Shown: positions 19,074 to 48,413 of the stretch, in pieces
Layout of the letters: the number at the start of each line of letters is the position of its first letter
Numbering within the stretch: position 1 is the stretch's first letter
Origin: Thermoanaerobaculia bacterium
Lineage (GTDB): Bacteria > Acidobacteriota > Thermoanaerobaculia > Multivoradales > J023
Assembly (NCBI GenBank): GCA_030431255.1
Contig: JAUIJL010000003.1
Location: forward strand, 372,001-436,000
Length of the DNA: 64,000 bases
Direction: 5' to 3'
Program-made: the position numbers and the translations under genes
The notes under the pieces: model-generated
Seen by the model: the letters and a program-made list of their open reading frames with translations, nothing else
Database searches by the model: none
Told to the model about the DNA's origin: nothing

Positions 19074-20210
19074 ATGGACACCTCCACCGGATCCCCGACC
19101 TGGTTTTTGGAAGGGTTCGTCGATGACCGACGCGAGATTTGGCGTACGGAGGTCGCGGCATTTCCGTTCACGGTAGGACGGATCGAAGGATCGAGCTTGC
19201 GACTGGCTGCTCCGGAGGTTTCGAGCCGTCATGCGGAGCTGATTTCACGCACCGGCGATCTTTGGCTTCGAGACTTGGGCAGTAAGAACGGCTCCTACGT
19301 CAACGGTTTGAGAGCCACCGGCGAGACCCAATTGCGATCCGGCGACGTGCTCAGATTCGCCACCTGGGAATTCAGGCTGATCCATGACGAATCTGCCGCC
19401 CGCTCGATCACCCAGACCCTGGTGCTGTCGACCCAGATGCCCGGGAATCTCGCCAAAATGGTGATGGAAATGCGCGAGATCCTTGCCCTGGGGCGGGTGA
19501 CCGCTTACTTCCAGCCCATCGTCCGCCTGAGCGACGGCGGTTTGTCCGCATTCGAGGCCTTGGGGCGGGGACTGGATGCGGAAGGGCGGCCGGTTCCCCC
19601 TGGGCATCTATTCGATCTAGCGGTGGGATTACGCCAAGAGGCTCAGCTCTCGGTGCAGCTACGGGAGAAGGCCCTAATACAAGCCAAAGGGCTGGCCGAG
19701 GCATCGGTGGGCGGTGATCGCCCGATCATCTTCGTCAATACCCATCCGGCCGAGCTCGCCAACGGTGTCGCGGCTTTGTTGGGCTCGTTGGAAGAGCTGG
19801 TGGAGGCCGCACCTTGGGCACAGATGGTGCTCGAGATCCACGAGGCCGCGGTGGCGAGCAGCTTGATCCTCAAGGAGCTGGGAGAGGGTGTCGCCAATCT
19901 GGGCATCGACTTGGCCTTCGACGATTTCGGTACCGGTCAAGCTCGCCTCCTGGAGCTGGTGGATGTCGCTCCGAGATTCCTGAAGTTCGATCGCGCCTGG
20001 ATCTCCGGGGTGCATCTGGCCGGCAGCGCTCGCTTGGAAATGCTGGAGCGTCTGGTGACCATGGTTTCCGGGCTGGGGGTAGCGACCCTCGCCGAGGGAG
20101 TGGAGAAAGAAGAGGAGGCCGAAGTGTGCCGGCAATTGGGCTTTGATCTCGCCCAGGGGTACCACTTCGGCCGTCCCGCTCCTGTCGAGTCCTTCCTCGA
20201 CCCGACCTGA
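19074..20210 (+). CDS. FHA-domain cyclic-di-GMP phosphodiesterase (FHA-EAL)
   Basis: 378 aa, soluble. Residues about 30-104 form a forkhead-associated phosphothreonine-binding domain with GR (35-36), SRH (51-53) and LGSKNGSYVNG (69-79). Residues about 140-375 form an EAL domain. Its catalytic set appears intact: E161 in FEALGRG, the Asn in FVNTHP, the Glu in LEIHEAA, the DD pair in AFDDFGTGQA, the Lys in FLKFDR, the Glu in LAEGVEKE and the Gln in AQGYHFGRP. No GGDEF partner is present in the protein or the window. Phosphothreonine-gated c-di-GMP hydrolysis would follow if a Ser/Thr kinase supplies the mark; one is encoded nearby at 13592-16234. That link is inference. Confidence 0.9.
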   Translation: MDTSTGSPTWFLEGFVDDRREIWRTEVAAFPFTVGRIEGSSLRLAAPEVSSRHAELISRTGDLWLRDLGSKNGSYVNGLRATGETQLRSGDVLRFATWEFRLIHDESAARSITQTLVLSTQMPGNLAKMVMEMREILALGRVTAYFQPIVRLSDGGLSAFEALGRGLDAEGRPVPPGHLFDLAVGLRQEAQLSVQLREKALIQAKGLAEASVGGDRPIIFVNTHPAELANGVAALLGSLEELVEAAPWAQMVLEIHEAAVASSLILKELGEGVANLGIDLAFDDFGTGQARLLELVDVAPRFLKFDRAWISGVHLAGSARLEMLERLVTMVSGLGVATLAEGVEKEEEAEVCRQLGFDLAQGYHFGRPAPVESFLDPT

Positions 20211-23214: not shown

Positions 23215-26166
23215 ATGGAAGCGCCCCGCACGACTCTCAACAAAACGGTTCTCGATGCCATGGACCGATTCAGTGCCGAAACCTGCTTCAGGATTTGGCG
23301 CGCCGGCAGATATCGAGATGTTTCTTACCGCCATTTCCGTCGACGGGTCTTCAGGCTGAGCCGGATTTTGACCCATCGAGGGCTTGAAGGGGAGCGGTTG
23401 GCGATTTGGGCCGCCAGCTCTCCCGAATGGATGGTCACCTACATGGCCGCCGCGCTCTCCGGAGTGGTGGTGGTGCCCTTGCGTCGCTCCTTACCGGCCA
23501 AGGCCATCCGACACATGTTGGAAGATGGGGAGATTTCCTGGGTAGCGGTGCAGTCCGGGCAGGAAGCCGTGTGGATCGGTGAGCTGGCGGACGGTCTGCC
23601 GGCCCTGCGGGGGGTGCTGGTGCTGGAGGACCCCAAAGTCGATGATCCGGTCCACGACGAAACCATACCGGGAGATCTAGAAGTCGCAGGCCTTTCCGCT
23701 TGGGTCGCGGATCGGCTGACCCGGGAGCAATTGGCTGAGGTTCAAGGAAAGGCGGTGGGTTTGCCGTCAGAGGCCATCGCGGGCATTCACTACACCGCCA
23801 CCTTGGAGGGGAGCCCGTTAGGGGCGGTGTTCGACCAAGGCCAGCTGGCCCTGGCCTTAGAGAGCATCCGCGGCTGGCTTCAAACCGAAGCCGACGACCT
23901 CGCGTTCTCGGTGTTGCCCTGGGACTATCCGCCGAGCCTGATGATGGCCCTGCATTATTTCGTTACCGGCGTGCCTAACGTTTTGGCGCGATCTCGGGAT
24001 TTGGCTCGCGAGGAGATCCAGCAGGTGAGCCCGACGCTGGTAGTCACGATTCCCCACGCGCTCGAACGGGCCTACGAGGACGTCCTCGATACCAACATCC
24101 GTCCCTTGCCGTCTTCATCCCAAGAGATCTTTCAATGGGCCTTGGCCACGGGCAAGAAGCTGCAGGCGGCGGGCTCGCAGGCCTCGGACGAGCTGAGGGA
24201 GCGGTACGCGCGGGCGGACCGAACGTTTTTCAGCGGAATCCGCGGAGCTTTCGGTGGACGCTTCCGCTATCTCTTCTGTACCGGTGCCACCTTGCCCAGA
24301 AATTTGGCGGAGTCCCTCCGGGCCGTGGGTTTGATTCCGGTCAATATGTACAGCCTCAGCGAGATCGTGGGATTCCCGGCGGTCAACCGCCCCGATAGCC
24401 GGCGTTTGGACGCTTGTGGACCGCCGACGGCGGGCTTTGAGATCCGTCTGGCGGACGACGGCGAAGTGTTGATCGGCGGTCCGTTGGTGATGCGCGAGTA
24501 TTGGCGGCACCCGGAAGAGACCAAGAGCACGCTATTGGATGGACGCTGGTTTCGCACGGGGGACTACGGCCGTTTCGACGACAGGGGGCACCTCTTTCTC
24601 ACCGGTCGCAGGGGAGAGACGCTCTTGCTGTCGACCGGCTCGCGGGTCACGCCGACTTTCTTGGAGAAGATGCTGACCGATAGCCCGCTGGTGGATCAAG
24701 CGGCGGTCTTCGGCGAAGGGCGACCCTATGTGGTGGCGCTCTTGGTGCCGGACCTGGATCAGCTGGCGGAGCATCTGCGAGCCGAAGACGGTGAATCGGT
24801 GGATCTCCACACCAGAGCCGAGTCGGACGCAGGGGGATTGACCTGGTTCTGGGAAAGCGATCGGGAAAGTGGCAAGGGATTGACCACGACCGCCCATCCG
24901 AAGGTCAAGCAAGTGCTGGACAACCTGATCGCTCAGATCAACAGCCGGGTCGATGAGAGCCAGCGGATTGTTAGATATTGCCTGGTCGCCCAGCGGCTCT
25001 CTCCGGAGTCGGATCGATTGGTGGAGGTGTTGGCCCAGAATAGATCCCAGCTGGCTCAGCAATTTGCCGAGCAGCTGCGAACCATGTACCCCGAAGGCCT
25101 GCAGGAGTCGGAGCAGGAGATCACCCAGGTCCAGGTGGGGCCGGAGCGTCTGCGTGAGCTTTTGGAGAAGGAGTCCATTCTAGACGCCTGGACTGCCGAC
25201 GCAGGGATCGGTTTTCTCTTGAGCCTGGCTCGTCAGCATCGGATCGATACCCCCTCGGTGATTCACATTTGTGATGCGGCAGCCGCCGTTGCCCAGATGG
25301 AAAGCGAGGAAAAACCCATGTCGACGGCGCTGATCGTCGGCGACCCCATGCGCATTCACCGTCTATTGCGCGCCAGCCTAATTCAGTTGCATCGGCATGA
25401 GCACATTCGACGGATGCGCTCAAAGCTGGTGGAGCTGGCCAAATTGGTGGACGGCTTGGTGTTGGCTTACGTCATAGACCGGCACGGATTCGTGCGCGGG
25501 ATATGCCGTCTGGATCTCGAGATCAAGGACACTCCGATGGCCCTCTTCGGGCCGCGATTTCGCCTCCATGCGGAGGTGTCTCGCCGTTCCGACTCCGTGG
25601 TCTTTTTCGTGCCCAAAGGTGGGCGTCAGGTGCGGATTTTCGCCCGCGGGCAGCTGGTGGGCAGGTACTCCAACGGCGATTGGATGCCGGAACGGGCCTC
25701 GGTGCTGGCGGGAACCCTCGACGAGCTTTCCACCGAAGGCAAATTCGACGCGGCTTTGGTGGCGCGAATTCTGCGCTGCGCTTTCCGCATGTCGGAGGAC
25801 AATCACGGGGCGATCTTCATGATCGGCGATGCGGATCGTATCCTGGCCAAGTCCGACAGCCCCGACATCAGCCACTTCGCCTGGATTTCGAGCGCGCCCG
25901 TGGCGTCGCTCTCCGACGAGGAGCTGATCAATTTCGCCAAACAAGACGGCGCCACGGTGATCGACAGCGAAACCGGTCGATTCCGCAGCTGCATGGTGCT
26001 GTTACGGCCCGACGCGACCACCCGAGCCGATGTCGGGCGGGGGAGGGGCGCGAGACATTCGAGCGCTTCGAAGATGAGCGCCGAAGCTCAAGCCATGGCC
26101 ATCACGGTCTCCCAAGACGGTCCGATCACCGTCTATGACCGCGGGAAAAGAGTCCTGGCCCTCTAG
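23215..26166 (+). CDS. Degenerate acyl-CoA-synthetase-like domain fused to diadenylate-cyclase-like (DAC) domain
   Basis: 983 aa. Residues about 5-600 follow a FadD15-type AMP-forming long-chain acyl-CoA synthetase: IWAASSPEWMVTYMAAALSG, YSLSEIVG (~379-386), WFRTGDYGRF (445-454), and GRPYVVALLVPD. The ATP-binding P-loop, normally YTSGTTGxPKG, reads YTATLEGSPLG (193-203), with its Lys replaced by Leu, and the C-terminal LTPTxK catalytic-lysine stretch is replaced by LSPESDRL. Adenylation is therefore probably lost. Residues about 640-840 form a linker or sensor region (VFFVPKGGRQVRIFARGQLV). Residues about 845-978 resemble a DisA_N/DAC domain with DGATVID (911-917) for the DGA motif and GARHSSASKMSAEAQ (945-959) for RHR, followed by ITVSQDGPITVYDRGK. 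Known DACs make c-di-AMP from two ATP. Whether RHS is active is unknown. Confidence 0.78.
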   Translation: MEAPRTTLNKTVLDAMDRFSAETCFRIWRAGRYRDVSYRHFRRRVFRLSRILTHRGLEGERLAIWAASSPEWMVTYMAAALSGVVVVPLRRSLPAKAIRHMLEDGEISWVAVQSGQEAVWIGELADGLPALRGVLVLEDPKVDDPVHDETIPGDLEVAGLSAWVADRLTREQLAEVQGKAVGLPSEAIAGIHYTATLEGSPLGAVFDQGQLALALESIRGWLQTEADDLAFSVLPWDYPPSLMMALHYFVTGVPNVLARSRDLAREEIQQVSPTLVVTIPHALERAYEDVLDTNIRPLPSSSQEIFQWALATGKKLQAAGSQASDELRERYARADRTFFSGIRGAFGGRFRYLFCTGATLPRNLAESLRAVGLIPVNMYSLSEIVGFPAVNRPDSRRLDACGPPTAGFEIRLADDGEVLIGGPLVMREYWRHPEETKSTLLDGRWFRTGDYGRFDDRGHLFLTGRRGETLLLSTGSRVTPTFLEKMLTDSPLVDQAAVFGEGRPYVVALLVPDLDQLAEHLRAEDGESVDLHTRAESDAGGLTWFWESDRESGKGLTTTAHPKVKQVLDNLIAQINSRVDESQRIVRYCLVAQRLSPESDRLVEVLAQNRSQLAQQFAEQLRTMYPEGLQESEQEITQVQVGPERLRELLEKESILDAWTADAGIGFLLSLARQHRIDTPSVIHICDAAAAVAQMESEEKPMSTALIVGDPMRIHRLLRASLIQLHRHEHIRRMRSKLVELAKLVDGLVLAYVIDRHGFVRGICRLDLEIKDTPMALFGPRFRLHAEVSRRSDSVVFFVPKGGRQVRIFARGQLVGRYSNGDWMPERASVLAGTLDELSTEGKFDAALVARILRCAFRMSEDNHGAIFMIGDADRILAKSDSPDISHFAWISSAPVASLSDEELINFAKQDGATVIDSETGRFRSCMVLLRPDATTRADVGRGRGARHSSASKMSAEAQAMAITVSQDGPITVYDRGKRVLAL

Positions 26167-26243: not shown

Positions 26244-27002
26244 TTAAGCAACCTCGACATCCCAGAATCTGTAGAGCCTCAGATGGTGGAGCAGGGCTCG
26301 ACGCAGCTTGATGGGCATGGCCCCGGGCTCTTGGGAGCTGAGCAGGCAGTTGACCTGGAGGTAGAAAGCCACTTGGCCGTCGAGGGGTTTGACGTTCTCC
26401 GCCATCAGGGCGACGAAGGTCCTCCGTCGCACGTCGAAGGGGAGCTTGTAGATGGGCTCTAGGGGCTTGCACGGAGGAGCCGAGGCTTTGGTCATGCGCA
26501 CCAGGAAGATCGCTGCTTCGTTTTCTTGGAGGTGCTCACAGGCCTCGGCTACGTCGGAAAAATTTCGTACTTCCTCCATGCCGATTTTCTGCAGGTTCTT
26601 GGTGATCTCTTGGTCCGCTTCCAGCTCGTGATTGACCACGTAGGCGATGGGAGGGATGCCCTCCATCAGCTTGAGATCGGTGGATCGAAGGGGAGTGAGC
26701 CGGGTGAATGTGCCGGTGTCGACGAGGGGGTCTCGCTCGGATCCCGGAGACTCGGCGCGCGGCGGGTCGGCGGGAGCGCTCGGCGCGGGCGATGGCGCGG
26801 CGGGCGAAGCGGGAGCGACGGGCGCTGGAGCGGCCGGAGCCGCAGCCGCCTGCGGTGGGGCCGCAGCGGGCGCGGCTCCCTGGGTAGGATCGACCACGAT
26901 GCGACCTTTGCAGGCCGGGCAAGCAATGGAAAACGCCCGCTGAGGCACCTTCTCGTCCGGCAGATTGAATTGCTGGCTGCATTCGCCGCAAGAAATATTC
27001 AT
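26244..27002 (-). CDS. Zinc-ribbon protein with C-terminal receiver-like domain
   Basis: 252 aa. Residues 1-35 hold an MJ0042-type zinc ribbon with C5/C8 and C28/C31 (SCGECSQQF and ACPACKG). A low-complexity Ala/Pro linker covers about 44-85. Residues about 115-250 resemble a degenerate receiver fold (IAYVVNHELEADQEITKNLQ, then EVRNFSDVAEACEHL) without an obvious phosphoacceptor Asp. The ATG overlaps the stop of the PilT/PilU-like gene by four bases, so it is co-translated with the motility ATPase. A function in type IV pilus regulation is inference; I do not recognise the family by name. Confidence 0.7.
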   Translation of the reverse strand: MNISCGECSQQFNLPDEKVPQRAFSIACPACKGRIVVDPTQGAAPAAAPPQAAAAPAAPAPVAPASPAAPSPAPSAPADPPRAESPGSERDPLVDTGTFTRLTPLRSTDLKLMEGIPPIAYVVNHELEADQEITKNLQKIGMEEVRNFSDVAEACEHLQENEAAIFLVRMTKASAPPCKPLEPIYKLPFDVRRRTFVALMAENVKPLDGQVAFYLQVNCLLSSQEPGAMPIKLRRALLHHLRLYRFWDVEVA

Positions 27003-37095: not shown

Positions 37096-38079
<984 letters not shown>

Positions 38080-38213: not shown

Positions 38214-40811
38214 ATGGGCACACCTAAGAACAGCGGCAAGACCTCCGCATCGAAGAGCACCCGACGTAGCTCCAGAAACACATCATTGCGTCGGCCCCCC
38301 GACAAGGGGCTGCCTTTGGTGCGTCACCGACTTCGCCAGGCTTGGTTCGGCCTGCTGGAGGCCCGGGGATTTTGGATCGGGCTTTTCGTCGTCGTCGGCA
38401 CGTGGATGTTTTTGCCCCAGGGAATGATCTTCGAGCCCAGGATCGAGCCCGGTACCATCGCTCCCAGAACGTGGATCGCCGACCGCGATCTTCAAGTGAC
38501 CGACGAAGCAGCCACCCAATCGCTGCAAGAAAGGGCTTCTCAGGAAGTTCTACCGGTTTACGACAACGATCGAAGCTTGCAGGCGGACCGACGTCGTCAG
38601 TTGGCGGCCTTATTCGCCCGCGGTCGTGAGCTACTGCAAGCGGATGCGGAAAAACTCGAGAGCGACACGAAGCCCCGCCGGGACGAAACCCTGGAGGCCG
38701 ACGGCCAGGCCAGCGGCTTGCAGCAGCGACTTGCGGAAGCCAGCTCGCTCAAGCTCAATGACGATCAGTTGCAGCTGATTGTTAGGGACGGATTTTCCAG
38801 CGAGCTCGAGGATCGTTTGGGTAGCCTGTTGGCGAGAATCTTGCGCCAAGGCGTCGTGGCGGATAAGGAGCTTTTGCTCGAGCACCGAGTCCGGGGCATC
38901 ACGGTTCGGGAGCTTCCCTCCGGCAGGGAATCGAAGGAATTGGATCTCTTCCGATTCCTCGACTATCCCGACCAAGTTCGGGAGGCGATCGACGACGATT
39001 TTCGGGCCTGGGGTGGCTCGAGCGCCGCTCAGCGAAAAGCTATGGCCGAGCTGATTCTGGCCAATGTCGCGCCCAATCTGAATTTCAACAACAGCGAAAC
39101 CCTCAATCGAAGACGGCAAGCCGCTGATTCCGTGGGATCCGTGACCCACACCTTCGGTAAGGGCGAGGTGATCGTGCGGCGGGGTGGTCGCATCGACGCC
39201 CTGCAAGCGCGTGCCTTGCGATTGCAGGCCGGTGAGCAGGACGTTGTCGCTCTGTTGTTGACGGTCATCGGAAACCTCTTGCTGCTGGGATCGGTCGCCT
39301 TCTTGATTTGGTTGGCCCTGGGGGGAGATCGACCTACGGATCGAAGCCGGGAAAGGATGCTGGGGGAGTGTTTGTTGCTGCTGACCCTGGCGCTGACCGG
39401 TGCCCAATTCGGAAATTTCGTGGCCGATGCCCTGGCTGGTGCCATTGAACGAGAGCCTTTCAACGCTGCGACCGGCTACGCTCTGGCCCTGCCGTATGCC
39501 GCGCCCGCGTTGATCGCAGTGTTGCTATACGGGCGAAATATCGCCTTGGTGATTTCCCTTTGCTTTTCGATCGTCGTGGGACATATGGTGGGCACGGACG
39601 CCCAGTGGAATACAGTCGTTTATGGCTTGGCGAGCTCTTTCGCGGCTATCTTCGCCCTCGGCAACGCCCATTTCGGACAGCGCAGCATGATGACCCGCGC
39701 GGCATGGGTGGTCGGTGTGGTCAATGTGATCAGCGCGTTGGCCCTGGTCGCCATGCAGGGGGGAATCGACGGTGGCGCGCCGGCTCTGGGGTTCCAGCTC
39801 CTATGCGGCTTGATCGGTGGGTTCCTCTCGGCGGCGGTCACGAGCTTCTTGGTGCCTATTTTCGAGTCTTTGCTGCGGGTTACCACCTCGATCAAGCTGA
39901 TCGAGCTGGCCAATCCGAATTTGCCCCTCTTACGGCGCTTGGCATTTGAAGCCCCGGGAACCTTTCAGCATTCGTTGGCGGTCGCCAACCTTTCGAAAGC
40001 CGGAGTGGAGGCGGTGGACGGGGATTCCGTGCTCATCCACACTGCGGCCCTCTACCACGACATCGGCAAGCTGGTCCGCCCTCAATACTTCATCGAGAAC
40101 CAACAGCTGGGGGGCAATCCCCACGACAAGATCCAGCCATCCATGTCGGCCTTGATCTTGATCAACCATGTCAAGGAGGGATTGGAGCTGGGAGAAAAAT
40201 ACGCTCTGCCGGCCCCGATCCTCGATTCCATCGAGCAGCATCACGGCACACGGTTGATCAAATATTTCTACAGCCGTGCGAAAGAGCGATGCGATCCCGA
40301 TACCGACGAGATTCGCGAGGACGAGTTCCGTTACCCCGGGCCCAAGCCCCAGAGCAAAGAGATGGGTGTCTTGATGCTGGCGGATGCCGTCGAGGCCGCC
40401 AGTCGAACCCTTGTCGAGCCCAGCACCCAAAAAATTCGCGCCGTGCTCAGGGCGGTTTTCGATGATTGTTTGAACGATGGCCAGCTCGACCAGACCGACC
40501 TGACCCTCGGGGACCTCAAACGGGTGGAAGAGGCTTTCCACCGAATTTTGACCAACATCTACCATCGGCGAATCGAATACCCGGGATTCCAATTCAATCG
40601 GCGGCCGCGTTCCGACGAGTCACGGACCTCGATCACTCGACCGCAGATGCCAGTCCGCTCCGACGAGGCAAAAGACTCGGACGGCCCCGAATCGGAGGGT
40701 CGGAAAGGCAAGCCCCAAAACACTGGCGGCAATGCCAAGGGCGATAAGGAGCGAGCAGGCAAAAAAGAGCCTACGCCAGCCGAGCCGATTTCCGCTAAGA
40801 TAGGCCGGTGA
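38214..40811 (+). CDS. pgpH: 7TM-HD cyclic-di-AMP phosphodiesterase (PgpH-type)
   Basis: 865 aa. Membrane enzyme that hydrolyses c-di-AMP to pApA in characterised relatives. A transmembrane helix at about 52-72 leads into an extracytoplasmic 7TMR-HDED domain (about 75-355). A cluster of seven helices follows (from VVALLLTVIGNLLLLGSVAF), then a cytoplasmic HD domain (about 575-780): GTFQHSLAVANLSKAGVEAV, HTAALYHDIGKLVRPQYFIE with HD at 615-616, and a downstream LDSIEQHHGTRLIKYFYSRA. The last 70 residues are basic and Pro-rich (RKGKPQNTGGNAKGDKERAG), unlike most members. Lies between phoH and ybeY, as in many bacteria. Confidence 0.93.
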   Translation: MGTPKNSGKTSASKSTRRSSRNTSLRRPPDKGLPLVRHRLRQAWFGLLEARGFWIGLFVVVGTWMFLPQGMIFEPRIEPGTIAPRTWIADRDLQVTDEAATQSLQERASQEVLPVYDNDRSLQADRRRQLAALFARGRELLQADAEKLESDTKPRRDETLEADGQASGLQQRLAEASSLKLNDDQLQLIVRDGFSSELEDRLGSLLARILRQGVVADKELLLEHRVRGITVRELPSGRESKELDLFRFLDYPDQVREAIDDDFRAWGGSSAAQRKAMAELILANVAPNLNFNNSETLNRRRQAADSVGSVTHTFGKGEVIVRRGGRIDALQARALRLQAGEQDVVALLLTVIGNLLLLGSVAFLIWLALGGDRPTDRSRERMLGECLLLLTLALTGAQFGNFVADALAGAIEREPFNAATGYALALPYAAPALIAVLLYGRNIALVISLCFSIVVGHMVGTDAQWNTVVYGLASSFAAIFALGNAHFGQRSMMTRAAWVVGVVNVISALALVAMQGGIDGGAPALGFQLLCGLIGGFLSAAVTSFLVPIFESLLRVTTSIKLIELANPNLPLLRRLAFEAPGTFQHSLAVANLSKAGVEAVDGDSVLIHTAALYHDIGKLVRPQYFIENQQLGGNPHDKIQPSMSALILINHVKEGLELGEKYALPAPILDSIEQHHGTRLIKYFYSRAKERCDPDTDEIREDEFRYPGPKPQSKEMGVLMLADAVEAASRTLVEPSTQKIRAVLRAVFDDCLNDGQLDQTDLTLGDLKRVEEAFHRILTNIYHRRIEYPGFQFNRRPRSDESRTSITRPQMPVRSDEAKDSDGPESEGRKGKPQNTGGNAKGDKERAGKKEPTPAEPISAKIGR

Positions 40812-40865: not shown

Positions 40866-41438
40866 TTGAATGACTCCGACCCTGCCCCTAGATTGACCAC
40901 CCCGCGGCCGAGCGATCTCGGGTGCGAGCTTCAGCTGCAAAACCCTTGCAGTTATAAAGAAGCGTCCGCCCGCCGGATTCGACCCTGGTTGGCCCCTATC
41001 GTCGAGGATTTGGCTCCCAACGCCGGCGGTCTATCCATTCGTTTCGTCAGTGATCGAGAAATGCGGCGTATCAGCCGTGAATTTCGCGGTAAAGATACCA
41101 CCACAGATGTGCTGTCGTTCGTCGGAGATTTCGCTCCGATACCTTCAAATGGCAGCGGAACTGACGAGGGTGATGAGCCAGTCGCGTTTGCCCAGCCAGT
41201 GGTCGACGGACCCGAGCCTGACGCAGGTCCCTATTTGGGCGATATCGTGATCTCGGTGCCGACCGCGCGGCGCCAGGCGGAGCAAAGAGGTCATGCCGTG
41301 GAGCGCGAGCTCAAGATCCTCCTATTGCACGGTTTGCTCCATTGCCTCGGCTACGACCATGAAACCGATGATGGAACCATGGAACGGGTCGAAGCGGAGC
41401 TACGAACTAAATACGGCATCAGCGCCGGGGAGGGGTAG
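40866..41438 (+). CDS. ybeY: Endoribonuclease YbeY, rRNA maturation factor
   Basis: 190 aa as modelled. Single-strand RNase needed for 16S rRNA 3'-end maturation and 70S quality control. The zinc motif HGLLHCLGYDH (H-x3-H-x5-H) and FRGKDTTTDVLSF are clear. Between the latter and YLGDIVIS there is an acidic insertion of about 35 residues that is short or missing in typical YbeY. The start is unsure: TTG 40866 begins the frame, and TTG 40892 is another option; no strong ribosome-binding site decides. The stop TAG shares a base with the next gene's GTG. Confidence 0.88.
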   Translation: MNDSDPAPRLTTPRPSDLGCELQLQNPCSYKEASARRIRPWLAPIVEDLAPNAGGLSIRFVSDREMRRISREFRGKDTTTDVLSFVGDFAPIPSNGSGTDEGDEPVAFAQPVVDGPEPDAGPYLGDIVISVPTARRQAEQRGHAVERELKILLLHGLLHCLGYDHETDDGTMERVEAELRTKYGISAGEG

Positions 41439-43673: not shown

Positions 43674-46600
43674 TCATCGGTGAGATGGATGTCCCTTCAC
43701 GGCCGAGAGGGCGACCAGGGCTTGCTCGACTTCTTGGTGCAGCCTTTTCAGGATTGGAATAGCTTTTCGTCTGGCGGATTCCGGATCCTGGGTGGTCCGA
43801 GCGAGTTGCTCCAATGAGCTGCAGGTCTCGGAAACAGTGTCCGCACCGAGGGTGGAGCTCGAATTCTTAAGGCTGTGGGCGACCCGGCGCCAGCTGTACA
43901 AATCCGCCTCGTGCACCGCCCGCTGAAGCTCTTTGAGCTGTCCGGGAACCGTGTCCAAGAAGAGTGAAATCACCTGCGCGGCGAGGGATTCCCTATCGCC
44001 ATGGTCGTCGAGCTGTCGAATCAGGTCCAGCTTGCGCAGGTTGAGGGCTCCGCGGACCTCCTTGGGCTGCTCGACCGGGGTAGCGGGCTGATCCGAGAAC
44101 GGCGTTTGTCGGCGGAGCTGTGCACGCCTTCTGCCCTCGGCGGTCGTCGGCAACCATTGCTCGATTTTGTCTTGCAGGTCCTCAATACGAAACGGCTTGG
44201 CCAGCAAATCGTCCATGCCCGCTGTGATGCACATCTTGCGCTCATCCTCGCTGGCTAAACCGGTGAGCGCGATCACCGCCGGCTGATCCTCGGCGGGAAG
44301 GGTGCTCCTCAGGCGCCGAGTCGCTTCGGTGCCATCCATTTTCGGCATGCGGATGTCCATCAATACCATCGGGTAGGTGTGCTCGGCGAAGGCCTCCAAC
44401 ACCAGGCTGCCGTTGGGAACCACGTCGGCTTGGTAGCCCAATCGTTCGAGCATCCGCCGTGCGACCATTTGATTCGAGGGGTTGTCCTCGGCAATCAAAA
44501 TTCGAGCATCAAATTCCCGCTGCGGTCTCTTCGATGGCGGCGCGTCTCCTGTGACGCCCGTCTGGGCTCGGCCGGCGGCGCCCCCACGCTCCGGCTCGCC
44601 GTAGACGAAGCTCAGGTTGAGATGCTCGGCCATTTTTTCGAATAGAACGTTCTCATGGTAGGGCTTGGTGACGACGTCGTCGCAGCCCGCTTCCAAGATT
44701 CCCCGCTGGTCGTCCTCAAATGCCGAAGCGGTCAGGGCCAGAATCGTCGTCCGACCCGTGACCAGCTTCGCTTCCTCTCTGCGGATGTTCCGAGTGGCTT
44801 CATAACCGTCCATCACCGGCATGCGCATGTCCATCCAGATCAAGCTCGGTCGCCACTCCCGCCAGCGCTCCACGGCTTCTAGGCCGTTCCTGGCGGTGCG
44901 GACGGGGAATCCGACGCCTTCGAACAATCTTTTGAGCACAGCGCGGTTTTCCGTGTTGTCGTCGGTGATGAGAATCTTGGGCGGTTTTTCCTCGAGACCG
45001 AGGGCCACCACTCGACGATCTTCTTTCTTGGCCAGCTCGGGATCCGCGGTGGGCAAGGGGAGGGCAAAGGCGAAAGTGGATCCCTCGCCCGGCCGGCTAT
45101 CGACCCTGAGGGTGCCACCCATCAGCTCTACAAGCCGTTCGCTAATGGCAAGGCCCAGGCCGGTGCCTTCTTTTTCGGCCCGCCCTGCCGCGGTTTGTTG
45201 AAACGGCTCGAAGAGCTCGCCGAGCTCGTTTTCCGGAATACCGACCCCGGTATCGATGACCGCAAAATCGATCAGATGGGATTTCATGCCGACCTTCAAG
45301 GTGACGGCTCCGCGGTTCGTAAACTTCACCGCGTTTCCCATCAGATTCAGCAGCACTTGGATCAGACGTCCGCTGTCACCTTCGACCGCCTGAGGGACGG
45401 AGTCTTCGATCTCAATGCTCAGGTCCAGGGACTTTTCCTCGGCCTTAGGGCCGACCATCTCACCGACGTCTCGGCACAATCGATGGAGCAGGAAAGGCTC
45501 TCGGGCGAGCGTCAGGCGCCCGGCCTCGATTTTGGCCAGGGAGAGCACGTCGTTGATCAGTCTCAAGAGGTGATCACCGCTGCGCAGGATGACCTTTAGG
45601 CTCTCCCGATGGCCGGCGGTCAGCTGGGGGTCACGTTCCATGAGCTGGGCGAACCCCAGAACCGCGTTGAGGGGTGTCCTCAGCTCGTGGCTCATATTGG
45701 AGAGGAAGATGCTCTTCGCTTGATCTGCTTCCTGGGCCTTGCGTCTTTCCTCTAGAGCCTCCTCGAGCGACTTCAAGGCCCTCCTCTTGGCGTCGAGAGC
45801 CGACCCCTCGGAGGCCTTGAGCTGAAGCACGGTGTCTTTAAGCTCGCCGGTCCTGAGATCCACCAGCTGCCTGAGCTCTTCGCTGCGCCGTTCCAGGGCG
45901 CTGAGACGCCATCTCACACCGGTGTAAATCAACCCGGCACCAAAGGCGGCGTACAAACACCAAGCCCACCAAGTCTCCCAAGGCGCGTACTCCACAAAGA
46001 TCGGCACCTGCAGGCCGGTCTCGTTCCACACCCCTTCGCTGTTGGCGGCCTTGGCCCGAAATGTGTATGAGCCCGGGTCGAGATTGGTGTAGACCACCGG
46101 CCGGTTTTCCTCCAGCTCGAGCCAATCCTTATCGAAGCCTTCGAGCTTGTAGGAAAAGCGATTCTCTTCGGGGGCCCAAAAATCAAGCGCCGCCAAGCCG
46201 AAGCTGAGGGAGGAGTCTTCGTAGGAGAGCTGGATCGGAGTCTGTTTGGAAAGCTCCTTGGGCACCGGAACGGCCCGATTGCTGATTTCGAGATGGGCGA
46301 TCGCCATCGGAGGTGGCGGGGTTTTGAGCTCGAGGTTTTGGGGGAAGATTCGGTTGAATCCATTGATTCCGCCGAAAAACAGGGCGCCGTCACGGTCTTG
46401 GAAGTAGGCCCCGTAATTGAACTCCCAATCCTGAAGGCCGTGGCGCGGCTCGAAGTGTCTGAACGTCTCGGTTTCTGGATCGAAGCGGTGCAGGCCGCGG
46501 TTGGTGCTCAACCAGATGCCGCCATCGACATCGGAGAGGATGCCGTAGACCGTATTGTTGGGGAGGCCGTGGGCTTCGCTCCAAGAGCGAAACTCCGCTT

Positions 46601-48413
46601 TACCGGCTTCGAGGTCCAGGGATTCCAATCTGGCAAAACCGGCGCTCAGGGTGCCGATCCATAGCCGGCCGAGAGCATCCACGTGCAAGCAAGAGACGGA
46701 TTCCGCAGGCAACGAGCTCGGGTCGTCCGCGGAGTTGCGGAAGTGGGTCACCTTTCCGGTCTCGAGATTCAGATGGTCCAGGCCGGTGTTGTAAACCGCC
46801 AACCAAAGACTGTCGGGACCCGCTTCGGCAATCCTCGGGATGCGATCGGAACCCAAGCCGCTGCGCCCTGGTCCCATCCCGAAGACCCTGAAGGTCTCGG
46901 TCTCTGGGATGAATTGCGCCAAACCCCCGCCCGAGGTGCCGACGAATACGGTTCCGTCGCTGTTCTCGAAGAGGCTCATGATTTTGTTGTCCGGCAGGCT
47001 TCCCGGATGTTCGGAGTCGGGCAGGAAGACGGTGAAGGTTTCTGCGCCCGGAGGCAATAGGATCAATCCCTGCCTTTGGGTACCGACCCAGAGACGGCCC
47101 TCACGATCTCCCAGCAGGCTCATGACGCGAATGTCGCGAGGAAATCCAGGGAGGGTCCCCGGCTCTGGGAAAGGTCTCAGCTCATCGGTTGGGGCTCGTC
47201 GCCTCAACAAGCCCCCAAAGGTCCCGATCCAGAGGTCCTGGTCGGGAGTGCCGGCAAAGGCGTAGATGGAGGGCGCTCCGTCGGTTTGGTCTGCTGGATA
47301 TCGACCGAGAGCTAGGCTGGCGGGATGCCAACGATCCACTCCTCCCTTCAGGCTGCCGATCCACAACATACCCCCTTGATCTTCGAGCACCGAGTAGAGC
47401 TCGTTGTCGGACAAGCTGTGCGGGTCCGCGCTCCGCTCCCGATAGGCGTGAAATCCCCCGGTTTCGGGAAGAAATAGGTAGAGGCCGTTCGAGGTCACGA
47501 TCCACATCCGCCGACCGCGATCGAAGAAGATCTTATTGATCCGCATGCTGGACGAGGGCTCGTCCTCGAGACTCAGCCACTCGACCCGGTCGACATCGTC
47601 GACTCGCCCGACCCGCTGGCCGGCGGCAGCCCACAACTTTCCGTCCGGGTCCAAGGCCAAGGCGGTGATTCGACTCCGCTCAAACGGCCGCGCAACGCCG
47701 GCCACCGGGCGACCGGCAATCCACTGCACGCGACCGATACCGCCGAGGTGGGAGAACAGCACTTGACCTTCGGGATCTTTGACGAAGTGGTTGACCCGCT
47801 TCAGGGTCGCGGGCTCCTGCTGCCAAAAGGGCAGGGAGATCAAGGACCCGTCGAGGATATCCAGCAGAAATAGGCCGTTCATGCTGCCTATCCACAACTC
47901 GTGGTCGCTGTTCCACAAGGTTGCCAAAATCTCGCCGACATCTAACCGCTGACCGTCGGCCAGGGACTTGACCACATGGCGAAACTCACCGGTCTCTGGA
48001 TTGTAGGAGTCCACCGTGCCGGCGTCGGTGCCGATCCAGAGCCGGCCGCTGCGATCTTCGTTGATCGATTTGATGCGGTTGTCGGAGATCGAGGTCGGGT
48101 CGTCGGGGCGGTTTCGGAAGTGAAGGAATCTGGCGCCGTCCCAACGGTTTAGGCCGTCCTGGGTGCCGATCCACATGAATCCCGCCGAGTCTTGAAAAAT
48201 CGCATGAACAGAGGCTTGGGAGAGCCCTTCTTCCGTGCTGAGATTCTCGAAGCGGAGATAGGGAGCCTGAGCCGTGGCAGGAAACACATGGCAGCAAAGG
48301 GCCCACGCCCAAAAAAGACAGGGGAGTATGGGTGTCCTCTGATGGAGGACCGGCTGGCAGAGTATTTTTCGCATACCGACCGGCCGGATGGTACCACAGG
48401 AAGAGGAAACCAT
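43674..48413 (-). CDS. Hybrid two-component sensor: Reg_prop propeller, Y_Y_Y, HK, REC, REC, HPt
   Basis: 1579 aa. A hydrophobic signal at about 28-49 is followed by two-component-regulator propeller repeats from about 55 to 695 (recurring D-x-x-G-x-LWIGT blades such as RSGRLWIGTDAG and LGRLWIGTLSAG). Next come a Y_Y_Y domain (about 735-810, YKLEGFDKDWLELEENRP), a transmembrane helix (812-833) and a coiled coil. HisKA has its His near 909 in SHELRTPLNAVLGF; HATPase_c spans about 1010-1120. Two receiver domains carry acceptor Asp near 1194 (WMDMRMPVMDG) and 1352 (LMDIRMPKMDG). A histidine phosphotransfer domain has its His near 1512 (AHSLKNSS). There is no DNA-binding domain, so the phosphoryl group must leave to an unlinked regulator. 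ATG 48374 is an alternative start nearer the signal peptide. Confidence 0.93.
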   Translation of the reverse strand: MVSSSCGTIRPVGMRKILCQPVLHQRTPILPCLFWAWALCCHVFPATAQAPYLRFENLSTEEGLSQASVHAIFQDSAGFMWIGTQDGLNRWDGARFLHFRNRPDDPTSISDNRIKSINEDRSGRLWIGTDAGTVDSYNPETGEFRHVVKSLADGQRLDVGEILATLWNSDHELWIGSMNGLFLLDILDGSLISLPFWQQEPATLKRVNHFVKDPEGQVLFSHLGGIGRVQWIAGRPVAGVARPFERSRITALALDPDGKLWAAAGQRVGRVDDVDRVEWLSLEDEPSSSMRINKIFFDRGRRMWIVTSNGLYLFLPETGGFHAYRERSADPHSLSDNELYSVLEDQGGMLWIGSLKGGVDRWHPASLALGRYPADQTDGAPSIYAFAGTPDQDLWIGTFGGLLRRRAPTDELRPFPEPGTLPGFPRDIRVMSLLGDREGRLWVGTQRQGLILLPPGAETFTVFLPDSEHPGSLPDNKIMSLFENSDGTVFVGTSGGGLAQFIPETETFRVFGMGPGRSGLGSDRIPRIAEAGPDSLWLAVYNTGLDHLNLETGKVTHFRNSADDPSSLPAESVSCLHVDALGRLWIGTLSAGFARLESLDLEAGKAEFRSWSEAHGLPNNTVYGILSDVDGGIWLSTNRGLHRFDPETETFRHFEPRHGLQDWEFNYGAYFQDRDGALFFGGINGFNRIFPQNLELKTPPPPMAIAHLEISNRAVPVPKELSKQTPIQLSYEDSSLSFGLAALDFWAPEENRFSYKLEGFDKDWLELEENRPVVYTNLDPGSYTFRAKAANSEGVWNETGLQVPIFVEYAPWETWWAWCLYAAFGAGLIYTGVRWRLSALERRSEELRQLVDLRTGELKDTVLQLKASEGSALDAKRRALKSLEEALEERRKAQEADQAKSIFLSNMSHELRTPLNAVLGFAQLMERDPQLTAGHRESLKVILRSGDHLLRLINDVLSLAKIEAGRLTLAREPFLLHRLCRDVGEMVGPKAEEKSLDLSIEIEDSVPQAVEGDSGRLIQVLLNLMGNAVKFTNRGAVTLKVGMKSHLIDFAVIDTGVGIPENELGELFEPFQQTAAGRAEKEGTGLGLAISERLVELMGGTLRVDSRPGEGSTFAFALPLPTADPELAKKEDRRVVALGLEEKPPKILITDDNTENRAVLKRLFEGVGFPVRTARNGLEAVERWREWRPSLIWMDMRMPVMDGYEATRNIRREEAKLVTGRTTILALTASAFEDDQRGILEAGCDDVVTKPYHENVLFEKMAEHLNLSFVYGEPERGGAAGRAQTGVTGDAPPSKRPQREFDARILIAEDNPSNQMVARRMLERLGYQADVVPNGSLVLEAFAEHTYPMVLMDIRMPKMDGTEATRRLRSTLPAEDQPAVIALTGLASEDERKMCITAGMDDLLAKPFRIEDLQDKIEQWLPTTAEGRRRAQLRRQTPFSDQPATPVEQPKEVRGALNLRKLDLIRQLDDHGDRESLAAQVISLFLDTVPGQLKELQRAVHEADLYSWRRVAHSLKNSSSTLGADTVSETCSSLEQLARTTQDPESARRKAIPILKRLHQEVEQALVALSAVKGHPSHR

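Follow-up and report, generated by a model that had tools for sequence, protein, structure and literature searches.

The signals that control diadenylate cyclases (DACs), the enzymes that make cyclic di-AMP (c-di-AMP), are mostly unknown. The closest described systems, DacZ/CdaZ, CdaS and CdaA (PF02457), have an N-terminal regulatory part followed by a C-terminal DAC domain with DGA and Arg-His (RH) motifs. The same plan is seen in a 983-amino-acid protein encoded in a 64,000-nucleotide stretch (the whole of which is called the window; residue numbers are those of this protein) of a 10.2-Mb draft genome of the phylum Acidobacteriota, class Thermoanaerobaculia. This protein differs from those systems in that its input is a degenerate acyl-CoA-synthetase-like (ANL) domain, a second and seemingly dead DAC domain lies between that input and the C-terminal one, and the motifs of the latter read RHS and VSQD rather than RHR and (V/I)SEE. 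The domain order ANL - DAC1 - DAC2 is that of a DAC with an input domain, unusual in two respects: its input is a retired metabolic enzyme, and it maintains a pseudo-DAC. The architecture also differs from that of DacZ/CdaZ in that the latter bear a PK_C-like N-terminus before one DAC; no PK_C match was found at E ≤1 in the whole protein of the window, but DacZ N-termini show very low sequence conservation (excerpts of PMC6741144). DisA shares the DAC fold with DAC2 (Z 12.5), but its DAC is N-terminal and a DNA-binding domain is found at its C-terminus (excerpts of PMC7288161), whereas in the fused protein the DAC is C-terminal and nothing follows it. The ‘two DAC domains’ mentioned in the excerpts of PMC7288161 are the facing domains of a dimer. 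The literature searched yielded no description of the fusion, of inactive DAC domains or of DACN-type names; the main review of DAC architectures lay outside that search and may list the architecture.

A preliminary description of this DNA had read the 983-codon frame as a FadD15-like adenylating fold joined to a C-terminal DAC. The frame and the Pfam matches agree with this as far as those two domains are concerned; a further stretch that it had overlooked (residues ∼698-813) looks like a second DAC. The one-frame ANL - DAC1 - DAC2 architecture was found in 20 full-length copies. Sixteen of these belong to Anaerolineae (Chloroflexota); the other four come from a single acidobacterial family (Thermoanaerobaculia). 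Kept out of all counts of 20 were G411 and G341 (ANL part missing internally), G179 (contig end) and G902 (no ANL); the first copy in G148 contains unread (X) residues near its N-terminus. That the gene is a chance fusion, or an artefact of assembly or annotation, is scarcely credible: a frameshift, a split gene or an assembly error, which the preliminary description had named as a point to check, is ruled out at the window gene by 19 further full-length copies with a single frame, the copies come from two phyla, and their ANL domains form one clade (100/100). Nothing at the window speaks for such an artefact, although G411 and G341 show that broken or misassembled copies do occur in these draft genomes.

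The ANL half matched the Pfam families AMP-binding (PF00501; residues 28-430, E 2.5e-37, 129 bits) and AMP-binding_C_3 (residues 469-513), and the Foldseek matches of the domain were ANL enzymes (best E 1.7e-29); both profile and fold thus place it among the acyl-CoA synthetases. It shares with the long-chain enzymes (FadD15/FadD11-like, PF00501) the fold and 50 columns conserved in both groups, including Tyr379, Glu383 and Asp450, in a comparison whose 24 control synthetases had been selected with the P-loop pattern. It differs from them in having lost the P-loop, the A4 His and, in most copies, the A10 Lys, in possessing conserved residues of its own, and in forming a separate clade (100/100). 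When motifs were counted against 26 ordinary synthetases chosen by similarity alone, the A4 His was present in 0/20 fused copies and 25/26 controls, and the A10 Lys in 5/20 and 22/26, respectively; it was lost in 15 of the fused copies, that of the window included. The protein of the window does not have the residues of a working enzyme: it has TATLEGSPL at the P-loop (A3) and an Ala at the place of the A10 Lys (607). The motifs quoted in the preliminary description were all found where it had put them, among them GSR (475-477), LSPESDRL (near 594-601) and, in the cyclase part, RHS (947-949).

In ANL enzymes, A5 positions ATP, the ribose is contacted by the A7 Asp and the A8 Arg, and the alpha-phosphate by the A10 Lys; in published mutants, activity fell 1,000-fold when the P-loop Gly163 was changed and 500-fold for the A4 His207 (excerpts of PMC8388817). 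The equivalents of both residues are altered in the window, the placement of these numbers on its protein being our own. Several observations weigh against a dead synthetase half. The P-loop Lys is present in 7/20 fused copies and the A10 Lys still in five, and the P-loop of the window retains Thr194, Gly199 and Pro201. In addition, a mutant in the P-loop Lys169 was merely 4-fold less active and one in the A5 Tyr304 showed unchanged activity (excerpts of PMC8388817), so the states of these two positions weigh little. The possibility that the protein is a bifunctional enzyme, in which ANL still adenylates some acid of an unusual kind, or moves an adenylyl group, and so feeds or counters DAC2, draws on the seven copies with the P-loop Lys, on the retention of Tyr379, Glu383 and Asp450, and on the five copies with the A10 Lys, four of which have it in a GELTPSMK motif. 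It is nevertheless very unlikely, given that neither a canonical P-loop nor an A4 His occurs in any copy and that the A10 Lys is lost in three quarters of them; the published mutants, with effects ranging from 4-fold to 1,000-fold, count against it unevenly. Judged by its residues, the phosphate and acyl side of the ANL pocket is mostly lost and the nucleoside side mostly kept (Arg465 in 13/20 copies), the loss of Arg465 in seven copies counting against the latter. Residues conserved specifically in the family (W236 in 18/20, L242, and GFP at 386-388 in 20/20) fit a site that has changed and is not in decay. These counts are in keeping with the earlier suggestion of a synthetase half that is probably inactive and may have turned into a sensor. 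The fatty acid or acyl-adenylate put forward there as its ligand is a conjecture; the retained synthetase residues would favour the nucleoside part of the pocket over the acyl part as what is sensed.

The C-terminal domain, DAC2, belongs to the DAC family (PF02457) by profile (E 1.4e-18 and 67 bits with the whole protein, 54.8 bits alone; cut-off 27), by its DGA and Arg-His motifs, and by the fold of a model of middling confidence. Two models were available, with mean pLDDT values of 65.6 (full length; poor beyond residue 525) and 65.7 (residues 632-983). In the latter, the last ∼145 residues matched structures of DisA and CdaA (Foldseek, E 4.1e-6), and DAC2 was superimposed on Mycobacterium tuberculosis DisA with a VIA Z of 12.5 (3.0 Å over 120 residues), so that the DAC match and fold which the preliminary description had expected at the C-terminus were both found. 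Since the VIA match list was filled by matches to DAC2, it bears on the fold of this domain and not on that of DAC1. Sequence searches of the PDB gave weak results, the best match being to DisA (E 0.026) and a second search giving nothing useful. Residues D911, G912, A913, R947, H948, S966 and D968 were invariant in the 20 copies. The ATP and metal contacts of CdaA are listed as Leu31, Asp71, Thr102, Arg103, His104, Ser122 and Glu124, together with main-chain contacts (excerpts of PMC7288161, section 7); the conserved side chains of DAC2 match these, except that the metal ligand is Asp instead of Glu. DAC2 therefore appears intact and is predicted to be the catalytic domain.

Three substitutions relative to CdaA speak against this: Thr to Ala at 946 (19/20; Ser in one), Arg to Ser at 949 (20/20) and Glu to Gln at 967 (19/20; His in one). 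They support an alternative in which the protein is purely a receptor: neither DAC would make c-di-AMP, and DAC2 would bind ATP, or c-di-AMP made by CdaA, as part of a scaffold that senses a ligand and acts upon a partner. In the same direction point the strong CdaA-like DAC present in all 11 fused-copy genomes checked, and DAC1, which already shows a lineage keeping a dead DAC under selection. However, the Asp, Arg, His and Ser of DAC2 and its acidic metal-ligand residue are invariant in all 20 copies, unlike those of DAC1 in the same proteins. Further, other DACs retrieved (predicted as such from their sequence) have RHA, RHT or RHM, and the third residue of RHR is absent from the ATP contacts listed for CdaA (excerpts of PMC7288161, section 7), so RHS alone does not mark the domain as dead. 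Two Anaerolineae DACs of 306-316 amino acids (L087 and L115, labelled ‘DacZ-like’ by us) likewise have a first motif ending in GD (GAIFMLGD/GSIFMLGD) and a residue other than Arg after RH; they differ in having one DAC and another N-terminal part, and the fused-family profile matches just their DAC2-like part. A pure receptor is thus possible but rather unlikely. The corresponding branch of the preliminary description, that both halves are pseudo-enzymes, becomes the weaker one: it probably holds for the synthetase half, but the key residues of DAC2 are kept in 20/20 copies, and the pseudo part of the cyclase is DAC1.

The evidence for DAC1 as a DAC homologue comes from comparisons of profiles. 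A profile of the middle regions of the 20 members scored 39.4 (P 5.7e-6) against 20 non-family DACs, picked out of 21 loci with a DGA...GxRH pattern, compared with a maximum of 19.2 in 100 column shuffles. Against the DAC2 profile of the same proteins, hhalign gave a probability of 12.9 (P 0.0022) and, with tighter limits, a score of 31.9 and a probability of 55.6 (P 1.2e-4), a score reached by 0/100 shuffles (maximum 20.8); a segment of ANL used as a control gave P 0.15. In the predicted secondary structure a near-identical order of helices and strands occurs twice, DAC1 having one extra listed strand. The reading ANL - DAC1 - DAC2 is based on this similarity above shuffled controls and on the repeated order of secondary structure. 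Some results count against it. Scanned alone, DAC1 of the window stayed under the curated Pfam DAC cut-off of 27, scoring 19.3-19.6 bits over positions 8-118 of the 119 in the profile (E 7e-4 to 8.5e-4); a match at E ≤1 was seen in just 4/11 members; pieces of three other members matched no family at E ≤10; and the arrangement of DAC1 and DAC2 is unreadable from either model.

As for its residues, DAC1 keeps Asp746 and Gly747 in 20/20 copies and Arg781 in 4/20, and in place of the residues of a working DAC it has Pro780 for Thr (20/20), Phe782 for His (20/20) and Pro800 for Ser (19/20). The Ala of DGA, the Thr and His of GTRH and the Ser and Glu of SEE are each found in 0/20. The register of the motif is uncertain, which also weighs against this assignment: a shift of two residues would give an Arg-His pair at 783-784 in 12/20 copies, not including that of the window. 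The profile alignment does not pick the shifted register, and the SEE motif is lost under either. By this residue count DAC1 has lost most of its ATP-binding residues. Mean pairwise identity among the 20 copies was 69.9% for DAC1 (640-825), 69.1% for DAC2 (842-983) and 45.2% for ANL (20-615), which argues that DAC1 is held by selection and is not decaying.

Since each chain has one dead and one apparently intact DAC, pairing of DAC1 with DAC2 would leave a single competent site, and DAC2-DAC2 pairing between two chains would give two. DAC catalysis requires two facing domains (excerpts of PMC7288161). An obligate intramolecular DAC1-DAC2 pair, with one working half-site that would yield a linear product (pppApA, pApA) or some other adenylyl product rather than c-di-AMP, would be consistent with that requirement, with the two DAC domains per chain in 20/20 copies and with a DAC1 as conserved as DAC2. 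No precedent for it was found in the literature searched, and the geometry is not readable from a model of low confidence; we regard it as quite unlikely. We favour, and would give an even chance to, a reading of the protein as a signal-gated accessory synthase of c-di-AMP: the ANL remnant would sense a ligand resembling a nucleotide, and DAC2, the catalytic domain, would be held or released by the maintained pseudo-DAC. It is termed accessory because the 11 fused-copy genomes checked also hold a strong CdaA-like DAC. We infer the activity of DAC2, the gating by the pseudo-DAC, the ligand and the coupling through a domain swing. Two ATP-loaded DAC2 domains from two chains would meet face to face to produce c-di-AMP. 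DAC1, presumably unable to bind ATP in the normal way, would pair with DAC2 within or between chains, and would either hold it in an unproductive pair or scaffold a productive one. ANL would sense an adenosine-containing ligand (AMP, acyl-AMP or a CoA-like molecule), and its C-terminal subdomain, which rotates in ordinary ANL enzymes (excerpts of PMC8388817) and here adjoins the DAC pair directly, could transmit its state by swinging. The simplest gate would be one in which ligand binding in ANL switches between the DAC1-DAC2 and DAC2-DAC2 pairings. In full, the scheme would have a dead twin in the same chain block or license the catalytic DAC, while the disused acyl-CoA synthetase, through its domain swing, would signal a metabolite of the adenylate or CoA type; it is offered tentatively, doubtful as it is.

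If true, such a dead-twin-regulated synthase would form a direct link between c-di-AMP and central or lipid metabolism in two phyla in which, to our knowledge, c-di-AMP has hardly been studied. The input domain here has an enzyme fold with known natural ligands, and the stand-alone DAC pair described below can serve as its control. What pseudokinases are to kinases, a DAC partner that selection keeps dead would be to DACs.

The fused gene was found in 4/7 genomes of the window's family, and a survey of the whole class (148 genomes) returned the same four only, at full length. Three wider scans gave counts that are lower bounds, mostly five candidates per genome having been scored. Among 396 acidobacterial genomes, at least two had a match, both of them in the window's family, and two more showed weak DAC matches only. 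Within the class to which G153 (an Anaerolineales record) belongs, at least 14 of the 396 genomes scanned matched at 390 bits or more, seven of which were known beforehand, some with two or three copies. Among 400 Chloroflexota at least two matched: G153 (fused) and G902 (stand-alone). A scan of genome_contigs with two peptide patterns, whose reach is limited to close relatives, gave ten loci, seven of them in Chloroflexota and the rest in Acidobacteriota, and none outside these phyla; the plasmids and viral contigs searched contained no relative of the fused gene.

The G902 protein (349 amino acids; L142, 7490-8536, -) consists of DAC1-DAC2 without ANL, and Pfam detects just its DAC2. Its gene lies between lspA and an rluD-type gene, both of which occur in G446 as well, a short way downstream from the fused gene. 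The DAC pair can therefore be a unit of its own, to which ANL was added or from which it was lost; in favour of the synthase reading, ANL can be seen as an input added to it. A search among 61 genomes drawn around G902 returned none but G902 itself. In G411 (L131) and G341 (L137), the internal absence of the ANL part reflects either real deletions or assembly faults. In a tree with 12 ordinary synthetases (from the 24 selected with the P-loop pattern), the 20 fused-copy ANL domains formed one clade apart from them (100/100). A C-terminal tree of 22 rows, including the C-terminal parts of G902 and G411, placed the two acidobacterial pairs apart, with two label changes forced by well-supported branches; the ANL tree forces one. 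This suggests that a c-di-AMP module common to the two phyla entered one acidobacterial family twice from Chloroflexota, a direction that we infer from the trees. The features of the gene, and of one other gene in the window, are listed in Table 1.

Table 1. Position of the fused gene, its domains and motifs, and the PgpH-type gene in the window
Feature	Residues	Position (nt)	Strand	Evidence
Whole gene, ANL - DAC1 - DAC2 (983 aa)	1-983	23215..26166	+	Reading frame; Pfam; 19 other copies of like architecture
ANL (acyl-CoA-synthetase-like) domain, catalytically degenerate	∼28-615	23296..25059	+	Pfam AMP-binding and AMP-binding_C_3; Foldseek; motif counts
Helical segment linking ANL to DAC1	632-697	25108..25305	+	Conserved in C-terminal alignment; helices in model, low pLDDT
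DAC1, pseudo-diadenylate-cyclase domain	698-813	25306..25653	+	Pfam DAC below cut-off; profile-profile comparison; residue table
DAC2, diadenylate-cyclase domain	857-978	25783..26148	+	Pfam DAC; VIA Z 12.5 to DisA
Degenerate P-loop YTATLEGSPLG	193-203	23791..23823	+	Canonical pattern in 0/20 copies and 24/26 ordinary synthetases
A5 remnant YSLSE	379-383	24349..24363	+	Tyr 20/20; Glu 19/20 (Asp in one); Gly 0/20 (Gly to Ser)
A7 Asp450, ribose-binding position, retained	450	24562..24564	+	20/20 copies; 26/26 ordinary synthetases
DAC1 DGL, replacing DGA	746-748	25450..25458	+	Asp-Gly 20/20; Ala 0/20
DAC1 GPRFR, replacing GTRHR	779-783	25549..25563	+	Pro780 20/20; Phe782 20/20; register of profile alignment
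DAC2 DGA	911-913	25945..25953	+	20/20 copies
DAC2 GARHS	945-949	26047..26061	+	Gly, Arg, His, Ser 20/20; Ala946 19/20, Ser in one
DAC2 VSQD, equivalent of (V/I)SEE	965-968	26107..26118	+	Ser966 and Asp968 20/20
PgpH-type 7TM-HD protein, likely c-di-AMP phosphodiesterase		38214..40811	+	Pfam 7TMR-HDED, 7TM-7TMR_HD, HD; whole-genome search

A strong DAC (≥135 bits) was detected in 14/14 genomes checked, 11 of which carry a fused copy, and also in G902; six further genomes that reached ≥600 bits in the Anaerolineae-class scan are not part of this count. Among 14 control genomes for the DAC search, Escherichia coli gave no match. A third DAC type was seen in G003 and G006 (L085 and L086; frames of 402 and 378 amino acids), CdaA-like, with GGTRHAAAL and a C-terminal extension. 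The PgpH-type gene of the window is flanked by phoH (37096-38079) and ybeY (40866-41438). The genome of the window has 24 matches to TrkA_C, 23 of them above the cut-off; these and the PgpH-type gene count in favour of the synthase reading. In G001 the frame of an SLC12-like cation-chloride cotransporter (L034, 6544-8943, -) overlaps the end of the fused gene; c-di-AMP controls K+ handling.

Neighbouring genes were taken as the longest frames, a crude form of calling, over flanks of differing length and with no background rate, and what they offer are hints. In G151 and G154a the fused gene is immediately preceded by one for a SpoIIE-type phosphatase; in G446 and, by similarity, in G419, SpoIIE/STAS genes occur at a distance of ≤4 genes. 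Ser/Thr kinases adjoin it in G148a, G149 and G467. G148, an Anaerolineae genome, has three fused genes, and two of them are each followed directly by a Usp-type gene (L128, 4862-5758, -, confirmed by Pfam; L129, 5231-5689, -). c-di-AMP binds the Usp domain of Staphylococcus aureus KdpD, and according to a section heading, other Usp proteins of this species, KdpD2 apart, do not bind it (excerpts of PMC4686210). Across the fused loci no neighbour was shared by most, save for broad signalling families; a histidine-kinase/receiver/GAF cluster occurred within six genes at 12/20 loci, a count made with no background control. The promoter scan found no sigma-70-like promoter.

Three other genes of the window were noted. 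Next to a gene for a T2SSE-type (PilT-like) ATPase, 26244-27002 (-) encodes a 252-amino-acid protein with an N-terminal zinc ribbon, beyond which no Pfam match exceeded a cut-off, and a Pro/Ala-rich stretch. Three kilobases upstream of the fused gene, 19074-20210 (+) encodes a 378-amino-acid FHA + EAL fusion, that is, a phosphothreonine reader joined to a domain of the c-di-GMP phosphodiesterase type. Finally, 43674-48413 (-) encodes a 1579-amino-acid hybrid two-component protein with Reg_prop propellers and Y_Y_Y, HisKA, HATPase, receiver and Hpt domains.

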